This document shows positions 15,409-27,481 of a stretch of DNA of 51,020 nucleotides, piece after piece. Position 1 is the first letter of the stretch, and each line of letters starts with the position of its first letter. Under the pieces are notes generated by a model. That model did no database searches. It had not been told where the DNA came from and saw only the letters and a list, made by a program, of their open reading frames with translations. The position numbers were made by a program, and so were the translations under genes. Source of the stretch: a virus; IMG/VR virus record IMGVR_UViG_3300021960_000105, positions 1 to 51,020 of that record; one strand, 5' to 3'.

Positions 15409-16272
15409 TTAGATATCGTTTATATTACCTGTGGTTTCTGATGTAACTTTAATAGCTGCTTTAGAAAACACCTTCTTACTATTAAATATTTGTGCATTCA
15501 CAACGTCAGTAACTATATGACCAAGTAAATTAATGGTAAATTCTGTTTTTACCATACGGTCATTACCTTGTACTATTTCAGTTGACGTAGAATAGTTATT
15601 AATCATTGCTCTAAATCTGTATCTAGATGGGTCTCCCCAATATGAATCTGATGCAAAGTTAACTCCCTCTATAATTTTGTTGTTCTGTTCTATATAATCG
15701 GTAAAAATTATACAAGAGTATGTAATATTAACATAATCTGGTATAGCCACTGCGTAATACTCTTTTACCGGGACTCTATTGTTTAGGATACTAAAGCGGT
15801 CGTATATATTTTTTTGAGAAAATTTCTTTTCGAAAACCCCATAGTTAGTAGGGGAGTTACCATCCAACTTATTTCCTAAATTTCTATTCTTTTCAATGTT
15901 ATCTCTTCTAAATACAATTAACGGTGCCTGCATTTTGCCGTTCTTATCACGGTAGTAACCATCTTTTTGCATAGAAGCCCATCGTTCTGGTGAGCCGTAC
16001 ACTAATGGTACGTTAATCATTTTACCATTTTGACTAACTTGCGGTCTCAACACCTCGTTAAAGTAGTAGTAAATAGCTTCATCTATGTCTTTAATACCTA
16101 TAGTGAGGTTTTGAACTTCATCAGTTGCTCTACTAACTTGATAAGCTCTATTTGTACTATCCACTAACGGAGATACCTGTGCAGAAACACCAGATTCTGG
16201 GTTAGTATATGTGTTAATACTATCCTGACGTATTTGAGTCTGTGTTTTAGGTAAGTTGACGTTATCTGCCAT
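15409..16272 (-). CDS. 15: Proximal tail sheath stabiliser / tail completion protein, gp15-like
   Basis: This 287-residue protein is close in length to T4 gp15 (about 272). The family pattern can be followed: DIDEAIYYYFNEVLRPQV, MINVPLVYGSPERWASMQKD (compare the VPITYAS segment of gp15), a middle domain with PDYVNITYSCIIFTDYIEQ, and a C-terminal strand pair with RMVKTEFTINLLGHIV. gp15 caps the tail tube and sheath and joins the tail to the neck. The context agrees: it follows gp13-like and gp14-like genes in the T4 order 13-14-15, with a 92-residue gene inserted. The C-terminus lacks the proline-rich end of T4 gp15. Confidence 0.7.
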   Translation of the reverse strand: MADNVNLPKTQTQIRQDSINTYTNPESGVSAQVSPLVDSTNRAYQVSRATDEVQNLTIGIKDIDEAIYYYFNEVLRPQVSQNGKMINVPLVYGSPERWASMQKDGYYRDKNGKMQAPLIVFRRDNIEKNRNLGNKLDGNSPTNYGVFEKKFSQKNIYDRFSILNNRVPVKEYYAVAIPDYVNITYSCIIFTDYIEQNNKIIEGVNFASDSYWGDPSRYRFRAMINNYSTSTEIVQGNDRMVKTEFTINLLGHIVTDVVNAQIFNSKKVFSKAAIKVTSETTGNINDI

Positions 16273-16540
16273 ACTTTCTAGTTACGTGTTTTCTAAATTC
16301 TCTTTTAAATGCAGCAAAGATATCAAACAATTTGTCTAATTTCTGATCATCAGGATATTTTTTTAGTACACCCTTGTATTGGTTGTAAGCTTTTTCTATA
16401 GATCTATCGACTCCTATCAGTGGAGTATACTCTACATCCCAAGATATTTGTCCTGTCACAGGATCTACACCTGTTTCTTTGGTTTTAAACTCAGGAGCAT
16501 CTTGTTTCCACTCTTGTTCTAGTATATCTTTTATTTTCAT
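16262..16540 (-). CDS. Small protein with capsid-targeting-like leader (92 aa)
   Basis: It starts MKIKDILEQEWKQDAPEF and overlaps both neighbours: four bases with the gp14-like gene and 11 bases with the gp15-like gene. The first nine residues resemble the short leader found on many proteins in this window, with ILE as a possible gp21 cut site. The rest is charged and helical (IEKAYNQYKGVLKKYPDD, FDIFAAFKREFRKHVTRK) with a basic end. Function unknown; the location suggests a neck or head-completion factor. Confidence 0.7.
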   Translation of the reverse strand: MKIKDILEQEWKQDAPEFKTKETGVDPVTGQISWDVEYTPLIGVDRSIEKAYNQYKGVLKKYPDDQKLDKLFDIFAAFKREFRKHVTRKYGR

Positions 16541-18549: not shown

Positions 18550-20142
18550 TTAGATTGTATTCACGTCAGAAATAAAGATCTTACCGTAGAATTCAGGTCT
18601 AATCATCTTCTTAGCGTAACGAGTCATTAAACCTTTTCTAGGAGTGAAGGTTTCTGGATCGTACACAAGAGGAGTCATCATTAATGGTACGTAAGGAGCA
18701 TAAACTGCACCAGTTTCAAGGAATTGAGATCCTCTAAATCCTAACAAGATTGTATTTTCAGTCATATAAGGATTCTTATATACTTTAAATCTGTTAGCTA
18801 AAGATCCAACTCTTTGTACACCCATGTTGAATTCTGCCTGATCACCATCTGTAGCAGCAGCATATCCAGGAATTGATTCTAGGATAGTTGCAACTGTTGG
18901 AGAACATACTAGGAAGTTTGCACCACCTCTTAATGTTTTCTGATGAATCTTGTTAGATACTTTTTGTACTTTAGTACCTAAAGTTTGGAACCACTGACCT
19001 TGAGTGTTGTAGAAATCAGAAGTAGCAGTAGTCCAAGCTGAACCATTCCATACTTTGTTGTTTTCTGCACTCCAATGCTCAGTTGTACGAGCTTCAGAAA
19101 TTAACATATCAAGAATCTCAAGATCGATTTCCATTGAAATATATTCACTTAAAAGTGAAGTTAATTCAGCTTCTGCATCGATTGAGTGATATGCGTTAAG
19201 ATCTTGCGCAAATTCTGGAGTCCATTGTGCTTTTAACTTTCTTGTTTTAGCAACAATTGCTTCAGAAGCAAGTTTAACGTCAATTTCTGGAATAGTGATT
19301 GAAGTATCAACAGCAGCTGTAGAATCAGCTTCGAAGTCACCTCTATCGTTATCTACTGGTTGTTTGTGGTAAGCTACAGTGTGCGTATCAGAGTTTGTGA
19401 TGGCATTGTTAGCTACTACGAATACGATGTTTGAACCTTCAATTTTAGTATATTGAGGATAAACAGCAATTTGAGTATCAGAAGATCCAGAAAGAATTCT
19501 AAATGCTCTAATACCAAGTGGGTCGTAATTAGAAATTGAAGATAAAGCAAAAGTTACTTCATCATAATCTCCAGGATTTACTCCAGTTTCGTAATTGATA
19601 GAAGCTGAGTCAGCGTTAGAAACACCAGCAGCAGTTGCAGTACCTTTTACTTGGTTGATAGAATATCCAAACTGTCCAGCTCCATAAAGACCGCCAGCAG
19701 CGTCAGTGTTAAGAGCAAGTTTAGAGTTAGCAGTAGATACGTTACCGTACATGTTATCTTGATCAGCACGTCCGTTTGTTGCAGTACCGTATTTGAAATC
19801 TAGATAAAATACTAGACCAGAAGGTAAGTTCATTGGTTGTACAGATACGAAGTCTTGAGCTACGATTTGAGCGAATACCTTTCTTACAAGAGGTAGAGCT
19901 ACTCCAGCCCATTGCTCACCAGCACCAGCAGTGAATGATCCACCACCAACGTTAGTTGAGTTAGCTTCAGCTACGATTTGTTTAGCTTGGTTTTCAAGAA
20001 TCATTGCCATGTTATGTGCATATCTTTCATCTTTAATACCTTCTAACAAACCAGAAGCTTGCCATTTTTCAGCCAAACGAGCTGCATCAGCTTGCATGCT
20101 TTTGTAACTGTTTGCGCTTTCTAATAGGTTGTTAATTTCCAT
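18550..20142 (-). CDS. 23: Major capsid protein, gp23-like
   Basis: This 530-residue protein is close to T4 gp23 (521). Residues 1-59 are a helical prohead segment (NLLESANSYKSMQADAARLA, NMAMILENQAKQIVAE). The likely gp21 cleavage site is IVAE|A at 59/60. The mature chain starts ANSTNVGGGSFTAGAGEQWA and continues with family segments such as ALPLVRKVFAQIVAQDFVSV, MNLPSGLVFYLDFKYG, ANFLVCSPTVATILES, FKVYKNPY and MTRYAKKMIRPEFYGKI. It forms the icosahedral shell. It follows the scaffold gene by 23 bases and is followed by a strong terminator. The start has no Shine-Dalgarno; the upstream sequence is A/T only apart from a few bases, although the gene must be expressed strongly. Confidence 0.95.
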   Translation of the reverse strand: MEINNLLESANSYKSMQADAARLAEKWQASGLLEGIKDERYAHNMAMILENQAKQIVAEANSTNVGGGSFTAGAGEQWAGVALPLVRKVFAQIVAQDFVSVQPMNLPSGLVFYLDFKYGTATNGRADQDNMYGNVSTANSKLALNTDAAGGLYGAGQFGYSINQVKGTATAAGVSNADSASINYETGVNPGDYDEVTFALSSISNYDPLGIRAFRILSGSSDTQIAVYPQYTKIEGSNIVFVVANNAITNSDTHTVAYHKQPVDNDRGDFEADSTAAVDTSITIPEIDVKLASEAIVAKTRKLKAQWTPEFAQDLNAYHSIDAEAELTSLLSEYISMEIDLEILDMLISEARTTEHWSAENNKVWNGSAWTTATSDFYNTQGQWFQTLGTKVQKVSNKIHQKTLRGGANFLVCSPTVATILESIPGYAAATDGDQAEFNMGVQRVGSLANRFKVYKNPYMTENTILLGFRGSQFLETGAVYAPYVPLMMTPLVYDPETFTPRKGLMTRYAKKMIRPEFYGKIFISDVNTI

Positions 20143-21408: not shown

Positions 21409-21990
21409 TTAAGAATCTAAAATACCCTTAATTTGTTTTTTAAACGCTTTTTCTTTTGATTGTTTACTTTCTTCAAGGTGAGAAGTACCAGCTTGCTTTT
21501 CGAATCCAGATTTTACTCCAGCTGAATAACTCATATCAGCTTTCATTTTTTTACATTCATCACTTGAATCCCATCCAGCATCCATACATTGATTAAATTT
21601 ATCAATACCAAATAATTTATCGATAGCTTTCATTAAAAGATCTTTTAAACCTTCGTTTATATTATCTTCTTCTAAAGCTTCCTCATTTTTCTTTTTACTC
21701 TTACCATGAGTATGAGATTCAGAAGTAATAACATTTAGTTCGTTCACTGGGATACTTCCTACTGTGTCACCACTTTTGAAAAATACATCATAGTGAGTTA
21801 CTTCATGTACTCCGTTTTCGTTTTCAACTAATGTGTGCTTACCTTCAATACATACTCCGTATCCATATACTTCATGAACTACGTGAGCAGCACAATCATG
21901 TTCAAATCCAGGAGCAGATTCAGTTGTAGTTTCAACAGCTTTATTTTCTGTTATGAACTTTCTTAAATCAAAATTTGTATATTTACTCAT
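21409..21990 (-). CDS. Probable prohead core protein with capsid-targeting leader (193 aa)
   Basis: It lies between gp21 and gp22. The N-terminus MSKYTNFDLRKFITENKA ends in ITE|N, a possible gp21 site. The next 90 residues form a small beta-rich domain (HDCAAHVVHEVYGYGVCIEG, DVFFKSGDTVGSIPVNELNV), with His and Cys that might bind a metal (HDC, HVVHE, C). A charged linker follows (SKKKNEEALEEDNINE), then a helical end with three Cys-containing turns (FNQCMDAGWDSSDECKKM). No family was recognised. Core location is inferred from leader, charge and gene order. A TATTTATA element lies 24 bases upstream. Confidence 0.75.
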   Translation of the reverse strand: MSKYTNFDLRKFITENKAVETTTESAPGFEHDCAAHVVHEVYGYGVCIEGKHTLVENENGVHEVTHYDVFFKSGDTVGSIPVNELNVITSESHTHGKSKKKNEEALEEDNINEGLKDLLMKAIDKLFGIDKFNQCMDAGWDSSDECKKMKADMSYSAGVKSGFEKQAGTSHLEESKQSKEKAFKKQIKGILDS

Positions 21991-22032: not shown

Positions 22033-22611
22033 TTACGCTCTTAGGATATCGTTAATAATAGAATCTAATTGAGTGTATTTTGAAATTTTTACTTTACCTT
22101 CATTTAGTGATATAGGGTTCATAAATGCACCATGTGTAGATGGATTAGATACAAAGTCCCAACATACTAGTTCAAAATCAGGTTGTACTTCTAAAGTACC
22201 TTCATTTGTCTGTTGAACTGAGCCGGTACCTCTAGATGAAATACCGATGGTATGACCAGCTTTTATAATTTCTTTAACAATGTTACCTGATGGTGTGTTT
22301 AATAGCTCTACACGTCCTTTTAGGTCGTCTCCATCCCACCATAACTCTTTTACTATATGAGAGGCGTTCTTAAGAGAGACTACTGGAGATTCAGGGTGAT
22401 CAAGTTCTCCGAAAGCATTGCCACGCTTAACAAATTCGTCAACGTATCTTTTAGCTTCACGCACTAAGATATCTTTTTTGTAGACTCTACCGTTTTGGTT
22501 TTCAGCTTTAGCTCTTTGCATAACACCTTCTACTTCAAAGACTCCCGGTTTAGTTTTGGACTCTCTAATGATAGGTCTAAATGGCGTAACGTCTACTAAT
22601 AATTGTGCCAT
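22033..22611 (-). CDS. 21: Prohead maturation protease, gp21-like
   Basis: This 192-residue serine peptidase has the prohead protease signature in order: His72 in AFGELDHPESP, Ser125/126 in GHTIGISSRGTGSV and Asp152 in FELVCWDFVSNPSTHGAF. The N-terminal strand pair (KPGVFEVEGVMQRAKAENQN, GRVYKKDILVREA) matches T4 gp21. The enzyme cuts core and capsid proteins after (I/L)xE and then itself. Its substrates are probably encoded around it: gp22, gp23, the 85-residue and 193-residue proteins and the leader-bearing small proteins. It overlaps nothing and is three bases after the 617-residue core gene. Confidence 0.93.
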   Translation of the reverse strand: MAQLLVDVTPFRPIIRESKTKPGVFEVEGVMQRAKAENQNGRVYKKDILVREAKRYVDEFVKRGNAFGELDHPESPVVSLKNASHIVKELWWDGDDLKGRVELLNTPSGNIVKEIIKAGHTIGISSRGTGSVQQTNEGTLEVQPDFELVCWDFVSNPSTHGAFMNPISLNEGKVKISKYTQLDSIINDILRA

Positions 22612-22614
22612 ATC

Positions 22615-24468
22615 TTAAAAGTTTGGTGTGAATATAGTTGATTTAGGTTCTTCAATAATATCTGTTTCACCTAATGGTCTTTCACCTGAATTGTGAGCAT
22701 CAACGTCTGCTTGTGTGATTGTTCTAACTTTAGGTAAATTTATTTTACTAAAAAAAGATCCTTTTTTGATTACTTTACTAAGGTCTTGTCCAAAAGCTGA
22801 TTCTAAGCCTGGGGCAATAAATCCTCCAATCTTTAAACCTTCTTCGTTTTCAAAGTTAGCAGTCTTTTCAAATACTTTGGCAATCTTATCAGACATCTTA
22901 TCGTAGAAAGTTTCAATCTCTGTTACGATATTTTCTAATTCATTTACTACTGGTTTAACACCTGGGAATGTTTCGTATGCTTCAGCCCAATCGGCTAACT
23001 TAACAGTAGCAGCTTCATTTAATAGTGTCTTTTTAATAATAGACTTAATAGCTTCTTTTAACTGCTCTTCTCTAGGATCCTTACTCATTTTCTTCTGTAA
23101 GTAGCTAGTTCTAAGGCCAAATTTTTCTCCTGCTTTTTCAATAGCTGTATCTCTATCAACACCTTTATTAATCATAGCTTTAATAAGCTCTAATGCTCTT
23201 TTATCTTCTGCAGCTGCATTTTTGTCGTATCCTCTTGGATCATGAAACATTCCAATTTCGTCTACTCCTTTACCCATTGCTTTTTTGATAGCTTTATCTT
23301 TAGCATGCATATAATCATCTCCGTCTACATCTCCGTCTCCATCAAGATCTTTACCTTTCTTTTCTGTTACAGAAGCACTATTATAAGCTTTAACCATATG
23401 TACTATTGTCTGGGTATCGATTTCTCTATCTTCTAAATAAGATACTAGATGTTCTTCTGAGTTGATTTCAATCATATTATCAACAACCAACTGAGCATCA
23501 TTTGAATCGCCGAATTCAGATATTTCTTTCTCTATTTCCCAAACAGCTTTCATACCTGGGGACATACCGGAAATATTGACTACTACATCACCATCGCCGT
23601 ATACATCATCAAGTTCTTTTTCCTCATTCATAAAGTCTGAAGGACCTTCATAGTTAGCATCGATATAGTTGTGAAACTCATCCATTGGGTCAGCTCCATC
23701 TAAAATATCTTGTCCATGCATATCTATAAAGTCATCAACAATACCAGATGTTACTTCTGGGTGCATTGCTTTGATTTGTTTTACAGCTGCCAGTAGGGTT
23801 GGGTTAGAAAGCTTTTCAGTTAGTCTTTCTTTTACTGAATCTAGATTATTGTAGAATTCTTCTCTTTCATCGTCACCCATTTCGTCATTAGACTTAGGAG
23901 TGCCGTCTTCATGTTCACCTGCTCTTCTTTCTTTAATTCTTTGAACTGCTGAAGATATTTGTTCTTCTGTATATCCTTCTTTTAACGTAGCTTTTTTCAT
24001 ATCATTAAAAGTATCTTTATCGGCAGCTCCTCTTTTAACTTCTTTTTCTTTGTCGTGCTTATCTACTTTATTAGATTCACCAGCCATTAAGTTAACATAG
24101 TGGTTAGCGTCTTTTTCAAGATTATCTTTTGCTTTCTTTTCAGCTTGTTTGAATTCTTCTGGCTTAACTGTTCTTTCAGCCATGTCTATTCCCATTACTC
24201 CTAACTCTATTCTGATACCCCTATCTAGTGCATCTAATGAATAGGTTAAGGCAGGTCTATCGTCGTAAACTTTAACTCCTGAGAAGGCAGGTTTTTGAGC
24301 TTCAAAGATCATTTGACGATTTTTAAGGATTTGAACTGTACTATCAAACCCATCGTATTGAGAGATGTACATAGGGTAAGTTTGTCTCATTTGACGAACA
24401 AACTCTTTTTTTGCCATTTTACCTTCTAAAACGGCGTTATATTTTTCAGTTGCGGTTACTTGTCTCAT
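22615..24468 (-). CDS. Large charged head-core protein with EF-hand-like loop (617 aa)
   Basis: The protein lies between the portal group and gp21, where T4 has its core genes 67 and 68. The first ~110 residues (YNAVLEGKMAKKEFVRQMRQ, RPALTYSLDALDRGIRIEL) look folded. A long Lys/Glu/Asp-rich middle follows, and a calcium-loop-like segment KDLDGDGDVDGDDYMHAKDK lies at about residues 372-391, with D-x-D-x-D-x-x-x-D spacing. The next helix ends with IIKKTLLNEA, giving an LNE|A site. The C-terminal ~120 residues are again regular (WAEAYETFPGVKPVVNELEN). No known enzyme motif is present. A structural core protein cut by gp21 is the best inference. It overlaps the 85-residue gene by 23 bases. Confidence 0.8.
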   Translation of the reverse strand: MRQVTATEKYNAVLEGKMAKKEFVRQMRQTYPMYISQYDGFDSTVQILKNRQMIFEAQKPAFSGVKVYDDRPALTYSLDALDRGIRIELGVMGIDMAERTVKPEEFKQAEKKAKDNLEKDANHYVNLMAGESNKVDKHDKEKEVKRGAADKDTFNDMKKATLKEGYTEEQISSAVQRIKERRAGEHEDGTPKSNDEMGDDEREEFYNNLDSVKERLTEKLSNPTLLAAVKQIKAMHPEVTSGIVDDFIDMHGQDILDGADPMDEFHNYIDANYEGPSDFMNEEKELDDVYGDGDVVVNISGMSPGMKAVWEIEKEISEFGDSNDAQLVVDNMIEINSEEHLVSYLEDREIDTQTIVHMVKAYNSASVTEKKGKDLDGDGDVDGDDYMHAKDKAIKKAMGKGVDEIGMFHDPRGYDKNAAAEDKRALELIKAMINKGVDRDTAIEKAGEKFGLRTSYLQKKMSKDPREEQLKEAIKSIIKKTLLNEAATVKLADWAEAYETFPGVKPVVNELENIVTEIETFYDKMSDKIAKVFEKTANFENEEGLKIGGFIAPGLESAFGQDLSKVIKKGSFFSKINLPKVRTITQADVDAHNSGERPLGETDIIEEPKSTIFTPNF

Positions 24469-24703
24469 AAGTTAGATAATCAAATCCTTTAGTATGTGAT
24501 GGTCGTTTTGGGCGTTCTAGCTTCTTCCAACCTAATTTTGTTAATGTTTTTTTTGCTCTTGTTCCTTTGCCAAATGCCTTTGGTGTAGCATATTGAGCTC
24601 CGTCACCAGGAGTAAATGAAGCACCACCTATGTTGGTAACATTTGCTTCATTCATTTCTTGCATTACCTCTCTAATCAACTGAACTAGTTGGGACCTTGT
24701 CAT
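24446..24703 (-). CDS. 85-aa core protein that copies the mature capsid N-terminus
   Basis: The first 12 residues MTRSQLVQLIRE form a capsid-targeting-like leader. Then comes MNEANVTNIGGASFTPGDGA, which parallels the capsid protein after its own cleavage site (EANSTNVGGGSFTAGAGE): E|A, N, TN, GG, SFT, G.G. and Q are kept in place. The remaining 45 residues are basic (GKGTRAKKTLTKLGWKKLER). Its place between portal and protease matches T4 gp67/gp68, but those are acidic. It begins with an ATGA overlap with the gene at 24700. Cleavage at E19|A20 would leave a 66-residue basic product whose start resembles the shell protein's N-arm. Confidence 0.8.
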   Translation of the reverse strand: MTRSQLVQLIREVMQEMNEANVTNIGGASFTPGDGAQYATPKAFGKGTRAKKTLTKLGWKKLERPKRPSHTKGFDYLTYETSNRN

Positions 24704-25554
24704 AGGTTTTTTAGTTCGTTTACTAGATCGTAATACTGCATTAAATTAACTAGATGGTTATCTGTTATTCTCTCTTTATTTGATAAAGGTTTTATAGTCT
24801 TAACAACTTCATCTAGTTTGATCTTAACTACTTCATTTTTAACTTTAGAAGTTAATTTTTTAATAGAAGATCTAATTTTGTTTATTTCTTCGTTAACTAA
24901 AGTGCGTAAACGTGATTGTGAGTTAACTGAAGTGATAAACTCTTTCAAAATATTTTTTTGTTGAGGAAGTAAGTCTTTATACTTATCATTAAACTTTTCA
25001 AGTAAAATCTTGAAAGTTAAAAGTTTAAGATCTTTATCATATTTAGAATACTCCTCAATAAGAGTGTCCTTTACATCTTCTTCCTTTTGCGGTTCAGATG
25101 TTAGGTGCTCTAGTATTGTTGTCTTGTTATCAATTAGAGTTTGAGGGTCAACTAAAGTATCGTTATTTTGAGCCTCTAACAAACAGTACAGTGCTGCAAG
25201 AGCTTTATAATCTCTTACTTGCATGCCAAAAAACTCTTCTACGTTGTAGTTTTCCTTGATAGTGGAAATCAATTCGTATTTTTGAGTCTTTAATGTCTTT
25301 TGATCTAATTTCCTAGAAACTTCAGTAATAGTAGATACTATAGCCTCAGCTTTAGATTGAGATACATTTTTATTTTTTACAATAAATTCGTACAGTCTAT
25401 ACTCCTTAGACAAGGATGAATTGCTACCAAAATACTTCTTGAGTATAGAAACAGCTGCTGAGTCTTTATTAGCTAGAGTGTCGGCAGCTATTTGTTTTAC
25501 AAGCAATTCAAAAATTAGACCTGTATTACGAAATTTCGAGTGTTTTATTTTCAT
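24700..25554 (-). CDS. Conserved protein downstream of portal, unknown function (284 aa)
   Basis: It begins MKIKHSKFRNTGLIFELLVK and is almost entirely alpha-helical, with long Lys/Leu/Glu-rich segments (EYRLYEFIVKNKNVSQSKAE, LKLLTFKILLEKFNDKY, NEVVKIKLDEVVKTIKPL). It has no cysteine clusters, signal or membrane segment. From memory, proteins with this start occur after the portal gene in marine T4-like phages and have no assigned function. The helical, charged make-up and place between portal and core genes suggest a prohead core or portal-initiator component. It does not carry the short leader or a clear (I/L)xE site near its start. Confidence 0.75.
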   Translation of the reverse strand: MKIKHSKFRNTGLIFELLVKQIAADTLANKDSAAVSILKKYFGSNSSLSKEYRLYEFIVKNKNVSQSKAEAIVSTITEVSRKLDQKTLKTQKYELISTIKENYNVEEFFGMQVRDYKALAALYCLLEAQNNDTLVDPQTLIDNKTTILEHLTSEPQKEEDVKDTLIEEYSKYDKDLKLLTFKILLEKFNDKYKDLLPQQKNILKEFITSVNSQSRLRTLVNEEINKIRSSIKKLTSKVKNEVVKIKLDEVVKTIKPLSNKERITDNHLVNLMQYYDLVNELKNL

Positions 25555-25582: not shown

Positions 25583-27481
25583 TTAGTTACCTAAATCTTT
25601 TATGTTATCTTCGTTTAAGAGATTAGGTTCAAATTTAGGTTCTTTTTTAAATACAATATTCTTTAATGATTCTTTTGTTTTATGATATACTGTTTGTGTT
25701 GCTAAATTTTCCATTACTGCATCATTGTCAGATGGATACCCTCCGTGCATGCCATGTACACCAAGAGGATCCATACCTCCAACAGGATTTTGAATAGTGC
25801 CGTATACAGAAGCTTTTTCTCTAGGTCTTCCACCTTCTTCTCCAGATTCATCCCATTTAGGTTCAGTTTCTGAATATCCTTGCGGTACTGCTCCAGGTTC
25901 TCCTCCTTTAGGAGTAGATACAGATCTTCTACCGTACATTGAAGCTAAGTCGTGTGGTGTACCGTATGTGACTCCTGATTTAGCAGGATCGTTACCTTCG
26001 TTTTCTATTTGAGCTAATCTAAAGAAACGTTTACTGTCTTCTCTAACTAATTCTCTTTCTTCAATATACTGATCTTCAGAAAGGTCAAACAATTTCTCAT
26101 ATATATAATCGGTAGAGAATAATTTAGTATCTTTCATTTGATTTGCAAGATCGATCTTTTCTTTAAGTAAAGCAATCTTTTCTTGCTCAAATATAATAGA
26201 TGGAGTAGTTAGCCTAATCTCAAAATTAGTTAATGATTCACCAGTAAATCCTTGTGTATATAAGTGTACCAGAGCAATTTTAGTAAGCTCTGATTCCATA
26301 ATCTTTTGAATACGTTCTACTGTACGTGCAAATCTAATATCTTCTGCAGCTAGTGTTGCTTTTCCAGATAAATCTCCTTCGAACCCAAAGTATGCTTTTG
26401 GGATCTTTAATGCAGCAAACATCTTAGCTTGTAAGTATTGAACGTCGGTTACTCCATCATATTCTAAACCTTTTGTGGTTTCAATACGAGTAGAAGTATC
26501 TCCTCCACGAACTGGAAGGTAGAAATCTTCCATCATATTCTGGAGGTTAAATCTTAAATTGTATTGACCATCTTCTCCTACATAAGGAGTCTTTTTCATC
26601 TGATTGATGGTCTTTTGCATGAATTGTTCTACTTCGTTTGGTGGAATTGAACCAACGTTAATGTAAAACATTCTCTTCTCTGGAGCTCTCATGATACGGT
26701 GAATTAACATCGCATCTTCCATTAAAGTAACTTGCTTAAATATCTTTCTTGCTGGCTCTAAATAAGAACGTCCGTAAGGTAGGTAATTTGTATCTGAAAT
26801 AAGTCTAAAGTGAGCAATTTCGTAATTGTCAAATTGAACTACTCTTTGCTCAGACTTTCTCTTAGGTAAGTAATTAGGGTGTTGAGAGGAAGCTAAACCG
26901 TCTGGGTCTAATTGAAATATCACTTTAGCAGGATTTTCAGGATCTTCTCCTTCTCTTCTAACCATGTGGTAAACTGTGTATGGGAGTACATTATACACTC
27001 CAAACTTCTCTGCTATCTCTAACTTAAGGAAGAAGTCTCCATACTTACACATGTTACGAGTCCAAGACCAAAGATTGAATTCAATATTAAGTACATCATA
27101 AAATAAATTATAAAGTACTCTTTGTATGTTTTCATCTGAAGATTTTATTGCTAAAACTTCATTTTGATCATTTTTAACTGTTGCCTCATCTGCTATAATA
27201 TCTAATGCAGAAGCTATAATTGGATCAGTATCCATTGCTTCATAATCAGAATATAACTGAATTCTTAATGTTTGGTAGTTAAGATTAGGATTAAAAATAT
27301 TTTTGTTATTGTAAATATACAGACGACTAAATCTGTCGATCAGTGAATTAGTCTGGTATCTACCGGTAGTTTGTATCTGATTCACATCAGCTACTTTTAG
27401 TTCATCTCCTCCTACGTTTCTTATTACTACGTCAGAGGCAAACAATCTTCTTAATCTACCAAATAAGGAAGTATCCGCCAT
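25583..27481 (-). CDS. 20: Portal vertex protein, gp20-like
   Basis: This 632-residue protein is about 100 longer than T4 gp20 (524). Family segments are easily followed: YRTNSLIDRFSRLYIYNN-like start, DYEAMDTDPIIASALDIIAD, ILYN-like motif RVLYNLFYDVLNIEFNLWSW, MVRREGEDPENPAKV, IAHFRLISDTNYLPYGRSYL, MLIHRIMRAPEKRMFYINVG, LSGKATLAAEDIRFARTVER, and the wing LKEKIDLANQMKDTKLFSTD. It forms the dodecameric DNA channel and is the docking site for the terminase. The extra length is a Gly/Pro/Glu-rich C-terminal tail from about residue 505 (SVSTPKGGEPGAVPQGYSET). It follows gp17 by 27 bases with a TATTTATA element between. Confidence 0.93.
   Translation of the reverse strand: MADTSLFGRLRRLFASDVVIRNVGGDELKVADVNQIQTTGRYQTNSLIDRFSRLYIYNNKNIFNPNLNYQTLRIQLYSDYEAMDTDPIIASALDIIADEATVKNDQNEVLAIKSSDENIQRVLYNLFYDVLNIEFNLWSWTRNMCKYGDFFLKLEIAEKFGVYNVLPYTVYHMVRREGEDPENPAKVIFQLDPDGLASSQHPNYLPKRKSEQRVVQFDNYEIAHFRLISDTNYLPYGRSYLEPARKIFKQVTLMEDAMLIHRIMRAPEKRMFYINVGSIPPNEVEQFMQKTINQMKKTPYVGEDGQYNLRFNLQNMMEDFYLPVRGGDTSTRIETTKGLEYDGVTDVQYLQAKMFAALKIPKAYFGFEGDLSGKATLAAEDIRFARTVERIQKIMESELTKIALVHLYTQGFTGESLTNFEIRLTTPSIIFEQEKIALLKEKIDLANQMKDTKLFSTDYIYEKLFDLSEDQYIEERELVREDSKRFFRLAQIENEGNDPAKSGVTYGTPHDLASMYGRRSVSTPKGGEPGAVPQGYSETEPKWDESGEEGGRPREKASVYGTIQNPVGGMDPLGVHGMHGGYPSDNDAVMENLATQTVYHKTKESLKNIVFKKEPKFEPNLLNEDNIKDLGN

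Follow-up and report, generated by a model that had tools for sequence, protein, structure and literature searches.

Why would a small protein encoded between the portal and protease genes of a phage head cluster begin, directly after a predicted protease cut, with much the same residues as the mature major capsid protein (MCP)? We addressed this question for the window, that is, the whole stretch of 51,020 nucleotides analysed (positions 1 to 51,020 of IMG/VR virus record IMGVR_UViG_3300021960_000105), and for its relatives.

A small head-cluster protein resembles the capsid protein behind a predicted gp21 site

The genes and segments concerned are located as follows:

18550–20142, minus strand: MCP of the gp23 family (PHROG_138, E=9e-76; T4 gp23 in the PDB, E=1e-37)
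19912–19965, minus strand: MCP segment A60–Q77, between the invariant residues E59 and W78, aligned with the N-fist of T4 gp23* (residues 66–91)
22033–22611, minus strand: gp21-type prohead protease (Pfam Peptidase_S77, E=3e-33)
24446–24703, minus strand: N-fist-mimic protein of 85 amino acids, an ORF whose relatives are found at the corresponding place in over 100 IMG/VR loci
24647–24703, minus strand: predicted propeptide of the mimic, residues 1–19, a helix and then M-N-E, ending at the predicted gp21 site E19|A20
24593–24646, minus strand: N-fist-like segment A20–Q37 of the mimic, ANVTNIGGASFTPGDGAQ, assigned by similarity to and co-variation with the MCP
24449–24592, minus strand: tail Y38–N85 of the mimic, assigned by alignment of relatives
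24700–25554, minus strand: p284, a conserved 284-amino-acid protein of unknown function, directly followed by the mimic gene in most relatives
25583–27481, minus strand: portal protein gp20 (PHROG_213, E=1e-64)

The head cluster is ordered terminase – portal – p284 – mimic – p617 – gp21 protease – p193 – gp22-like – MCP. No Pfam or PHROG family was matched by the mimic protein. One member of the cluster, p193 (21409–21990, minus strand), was unexpected at this place; it has matches in functionally unassigned phage families and in PHROG_764 (cytidyltransferase, E=3e-8).

Residues 19–37 of the mimic (EANVTNIGGASFTPGDGAQ) and residues 59–77 of the MCP (EANSTNVGGGSFTAGAGEQ; DNA 19968–19912, minus strand) are identical at 13 of 19 positions, which confirms the match that the sequence-only reading of this DNA had proposed; the ORF at 24446–24703 lies on the minus strand. 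The matched residues are followed in both proteins by Y or W and then by A. When the record was searched with the whole mimic protein, the MCP was the only second match (E=2.7e-5). The alignment score of the two segments was 64, the maximum among 5000 segment shuffles being 47, and a DNA pattern of the segment had two matches with no mismatch in the record, one in the mimic and one in the MCP gene, and none in 100 shuffles. Alignment of 29 mimic proteins with 55 MCPs by hhalign joined only the N-fist stretch (E=1.5e-5). Fifteen records were searched with a less strict pattern (G-x-x-F-x-x-G-x-G-[AE]-Q, then an aromatic-type codon). Twelve of these, the window and 11 others including one of 191 kb, contained exactly two matches, one per gene; two further records had one match each and Flavobacterium phage immuto had none, and the reversed pattern, used as a control, matched nowhere in the 15 records. 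A scan of IMG/VR with GDGAQYATP located the mimic gene after p284 in the loci examined, apart from two unrelated matches. As judged from the sequences, the resemblance between mimic and MCP is not due to chance.

The residues M-N-E|A directly before the N-fist-like segment of the window protein form a predicted gp21 motif (L/I/V/M-x-E), the motif of T4 gp21 being L/I-x-E (PMC9026906). Of 97 mimic relatives, 85 have L, I, V or M at position P3 of the predicted site. The gp21-type protease of the cluster is the expected enzyme for both cuts, in the mimic and in the MCP. The predicted mature mimic of 66 amino acids would have a net charge of about +9, and its tail retains the motifs YxTPxAF and K-LGxK in the alignment of relatives. 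Structure prediction of the mimic gave little (pLDDT 64), the N-fist-like segment on its own being predicted as disordered; a helix was predicted for residues 3–23, covering the 19-residue propeptide.

The mimic protein at L171:6169-6537 contains a second, tandem module (TPRAF..GFKTV and FGTPHAF..GYKLV). Downstream of the MCP gene, the window encodes a 92-amino-acid protein (16262–16540, minus strand) homologous to the N-terminal domain of long mimic proteins (E=1e-8), a homology found in about 40 genomes; none of the 14 cases in which this domain is joined to the mimic showed a further, free-standing copy. The fused domain was considered as a pointer to the neck, and this was unconvincing.

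The copied segment corresponds to the N-fist of T4 gp23

Alignment to T4 gp23 showed that the MCP segment starts at the gp21 cut and stops where the T4 N-arm starts. Within the window family this N-fist is a variable stretch flanked by the invariant E59 and W78. In T4, the N-fist comprises gp23* residues 66–91 and touches four subunits, two of the same and two of the next capsomer; it is disordered inside the prohead, and on expansion it moves outward and becomes ordered, as described in two structural papers (PMC7136217, PMC9958956). According to the same papers, it is disordered in the expanded shell only in the five gp23* subunits that face the portal. The T4 N-fist and the mimic segment share their position after the gp21 cut, and NATNIxxG...Q aligns with NSTNVGGG...Q; the T4 N-fist is part of the shell subunit, whereas the copy in the window is placed on a separate small protein.

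The alternative left by the sequence-only reading, that the capsid segment is a disordered passenger without contacts, does not hold, since the segment corresponds to a known contact element. Nor does the predicted disorder of the lone segment refute mimicry, because the T4 N-fist is likewise disordered in the prohead. The predicted MCP monomer was weak (pLDDT 62) and showed only kinship with the T4 and P1 shells. Each of 14 related large records contains one gene of the gp23 family (PF07068), whereas T4 has two, and no gp24 was found in these 14 records of the window family.

Mimic and N-fist co-vary across relatives

Each MCP from the IMG/VR scans was paired with the gene after p284 (two after the portal gene), and N-fists of at least 15 residues were classed as long. 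When this gene was ranked among the approximately 23 ORFs of its locus, it came first for similarity to its own MCP N-fist in 71 of the 102 long-N-fist loci, with a chance expectation of 5. Shuffled N-fists gave 12–22 loci (about 17), and the 20 residues of the MCP on either side of the N-fist gave 1 and 3, whereas N-fists taken from other genomes gave 51–65. The score of own mimic/N-fist pairs was 42.2 and dropped to 33.0 ± 0.8 after shuffling of partners. To control for ancestry, own and swapped partners were compared in 43 non-overlapping sister pairs from a tree of the MCP without its N-fist. Own partners fitted better in 23 pairs and worse in 9, with 11 ties (sign-flip p=0.0008); an earlier version of this test with another partner definition gave p=0.0026. 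The shared segment thus occurs in many relatives and changes together with the MCP, as opposed to the absence from relatives that would have spoken against the original reading.

Single pairs illustrate the co-variation. The pair of locus L099 has GGDAFAGG in common (EQSSTQTGGDAFAGGVGAQW / EQSSTATGGDAFAGGEGAQY) and that of L378 GAGSSAFT (EQSSTQAGAGSSAFTANAGNGANW / EVSATSGGAGSSAFTSNAGTGAQY); a third pair (L166) reads EANVNTSGGAGFSAGAGETW / EANVTQVGGSGFTAGAGETY, and TGGGAGS is present in both copies of L195. Residues common to both copies are encoded by identical codons in 45% of cases, and codon usage predicts 47%. Since codon identity is no higher than predicted, it is selection acting on the peptide that maintains the likeness; a recent gene conversion between the mimic and MCP genes is ruled out.

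The copy is not universal. The gene did not rank first in 31 of the 102 long-N-fist loci, and in several it plainly lacks an N-fist copy (e.g. EGIGYLTP forms). In L318, L325, L337 and L353, mimic orthologues have EGIGY[LMS]TP in place of the copy while the MCP N-fist is retained. Some lineages have lost the N-fist copy, and in those the mimic is therefore dispensable. With short MCP N-fists (Mel-JY01-like phages) mimicry was undetectable (4 of 36 loci). The closest isolated phages with the gene are Flavobacterium phage immuto and Microcystis phage Mel-JY01, and in these two lineages the F-containing segment occurs in neither mimic nor MCP.

T4 gp61.1 and KVP40.0019 carry copies of their own N-fists

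Searches of T4 and KVP40 with their own N-fists each returned a single second match, gene 61.1 in T4 (E=3.3e-4) and KVP40.0019 in KVP40 (E=2.7e-5). The beginning of gp61.1, MKTFKEFIKE|DMVAGDSGGNPENISIGTTSGAVVNKGPEQIPKKKKEESKEKEE, parallels ..FLTE|AEIGGDHGYNATNIAAGQTSGAVTQIGP of gp23, and after the predicted gp21 cut gp61.1 would start with DMVAGDSGGNPENISIG. With the gp23 N-terminal region as query, a corresponding match was obtained in 11 of 12 further T4-like genomes; no second N-fist copy was found in cyanophage P-SSM2. In proteins of the gp61.1 type, the mimic is preceded by either a short propeptide or a domain of some 120 amino acids and is followed by a basic tail. Among 13 T4-like genomes matched pairs fitted better than shuffled ones (p=0.004, a statistic that ignores ancestry). 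Close relatives of gp61.1 are present in at least 909 phage records (E<=1e-8).

Both proteins, which are annotated as hypothetical, share with the window mimic the propeptide or N-terminal domain, a predicted gp21 site, a copy of their own gp23 N-fist and a lysine-rich tail. However, gp61.1 and KVP40.0019 adjoin the primase gene, whereas the window gene is flanked on one side by p284, itself adjacent to the portal gene, and on the other by p617. gp61.1 belongs to PHROG_1823, of unknown function, and KVP40.0019 to PHROG_2086; neither family was matched by the window protein in profile comparison. Alignment scores of mimics to their own MCP were 64–82, compared with 15–31, i.e. background, across the two lineages. 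On this comparison, the window protein is unrelated to gp61.1 outside the mimic segment. The proposal that the small protein mimics the mature MCP N-terminus is strongly supported by the co-variation of the copies and by these T4 and KVP40 proteins with the same kind of copy; the further suggestions of the sequence-only reading, namely a core protein, a DNA tether or a determinant of capsid geometry, are conjectural.

For gp61.1 only genome annotations and tables were found in the literature; it has no named chain in the PDB and is absent from the published table of T4 head composition, as far as the accessible part of that source goes. Several public genomes label it 'major capsid protein' (e.g. 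MW082584.1, 33365–33841), apparently because of the N-fist in common. The end of a 140-amino-acid ORF of Aeromonas phage PX29 (L425:1477-1899), APKLIADEICGVQPMSEHTSKIYTLR, resembles the part of gp23 that follows the N-fist and covers the T4 Gol peptide.

Relation to known head proteins

The carrier protein looks like a processed internal head protein, which is a known kind. To our knowledge, the mature internal proteins of T4 (IPI–III, Alt) have not been reported to mimic gp23. Their capsid-targeting sequence is a short propeptide at the N-terminus that runs up to a gp21 site (PMC9026906), an arrangement predicted for the mimic as well. The T4 genes for gp67 and gp68 lie, as does the mimic gene, between portal and gp21, and gp68 also has a basic tail; homology to gp68 was ruled out by hhalign (probability 0.2%, E=0.34), and inspection by eye revealed no N-fist copy in gp67 or gp68. 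The mimic is also not a paralogue of gp24-type vertex proteins, as it has 85 amino acids and no Pfam (PF07068) match and as related genomes have a single PF07068 gene. Phage P1 DarA/Hdf is a head protein that is cut by the prohead protease and binds the inner capsid at penton–hexon junctions, and SaPI CpmB competes for MCP sites (PMC12810830). Their descriptions, which report no copying of the mature MCP N-terminus, set both apart from the mimic. No separate protein that copies the N-fist was described in the literature searched, which for the most part did not cover subscription journals, so that an earlier notice is possible. On sequence grounds, the new element would be the copying of the shell's own docking peptide, for which no precedent was found.

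A probable stand-in for the N-terminal docking peptide of the MCP

The small protein is best explained, with reasonable probability, as a stand-in for the N-terminal docking peptide of the MCP. We infer the following course. The helical propeptide would carry the mimic into the prohead like the capsid-targeting sequence of T4 internal proteins, and the gp21 cut after E19 would leave a protein of 66 residues that copies the start of the mature MCP in its first 18 residues. At expansion, when the MCP N-fists become ordered on neighbouring capsomers, the mimic peptide would bind the same kind of site, and docking of the mature mimic in MCP N-fist sites is the probable outcome. Favoured sites would be those that receive no N-fist from an MCP, such as those around the portal, where the shell lacks a pentamer; in phages with gp24, donor-less sites would also exist beside gp24 pentamers, which have no N-fist. 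As the window family has one gp23-type gene and no gp24 (14 large records), its pentamers presumably carry N-fists, and donor-less sites are therefore expected mainly at the portal vertex. Location of the docked mimic at this vertex is suggested tentatively; the position of its gene near the portal gene agrees with it and proves nothing. The basic tail might reinforce the vertex or serve to hold DNA or a further protein of the head. The accessible part of the 2020 portal-vertex paper describes the portal-facing N-fists as disordered and does not mention an extra peptide that fills the sites.

Unlikely, yet the most serious of the other explanations, is a timing factor: the cut peptide would compete with the MCP N-fists for their pockets in the prohead or at the onset of expansion, would delay or seed expansion and would not have to remain in the virion. 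Both copies are predicted to be freed by the same protease, T4 expansion probably begins at the portal, close to whose gene the mimic is encoded, and the lack of gp61.1 in the T4 head table, in its accessible part, would suit a transient role; a stable complex, however, explains the long-lived co-variation equally well. Improbable is a third protein (e.g. a gp21 exosite or a decoration protein) that recognizes both segments while the mimic does not touch the N-fist site. Both segments directly follow a predicted gp21 site and the N-fist contributes to the T4 Soc site, but a genome has just two copies, even though the substrates of T4 gp21 are many and are cut after a short L/I-x-E motif (PMC9026906), and the co-variation reaches about 18 residues past the cut. 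Recognition by the protease alone is disfavoured, as no third copy was seen in the genomes.

The mimic might also be a decoy that soaks up a host defence sensor of the capsid N-terminus, which we regard as very improbable. Capsid-sensing host systems do exist, for example CapRel-SJ46 and Lit, the latter acting with the Gol peptide of T4 (PMC10286901), yet a decoy would hardly be expected to have a predicted prohead cleavage site or to be encoded among head genes. In the capsid protein, moreover, the N-fist segment is upstream of the Gol region. Hardly credible, finally, and largely refuted is a functionless scrap of a duplicated capsid gene or a chance likeness between glycine-rich peptides. 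Such peptides align readily, and even shuffled N-fists single out the gene in about 17 loci out of 102, but the true residue order does so in 71; moreover, co-variation at the residue level without codon identity, the block-diagonal specificity of the scores (own MCP 64–82 versus 15–31 across lineages) and the conservation of gp61.1 in at least 909 records argue against it.

Implications

The co-varying copies, together with the otherwise unrelated T4 gp61.1 that does likewise, suggest that T4-type phages produce a substitute for the arm of their own capsid protein. It is possible, though we put this forward with caution, that these phages have at least twice acquired a dedicated, co-evolving N-fist copy that fills sites left empty by the lattice, chiefly at the portal, gp61.1 being the copy of T4. 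If true, the symmetry-mismatched vertex would carry a previously unseen head component, and a part of the best-studied phage head may have escaped notice. Gene 61.1, which carries no annotation beyond hypothetical and is found in at least 909 phage records, gains a testable function. The mimic would supply a natural and co-evolving peptide that competes for the contact by which T4-type capsids are locked at expansion, and would allow the expansion steps and the portal-vertex mismatch to be probed directly in a laboratory phage.
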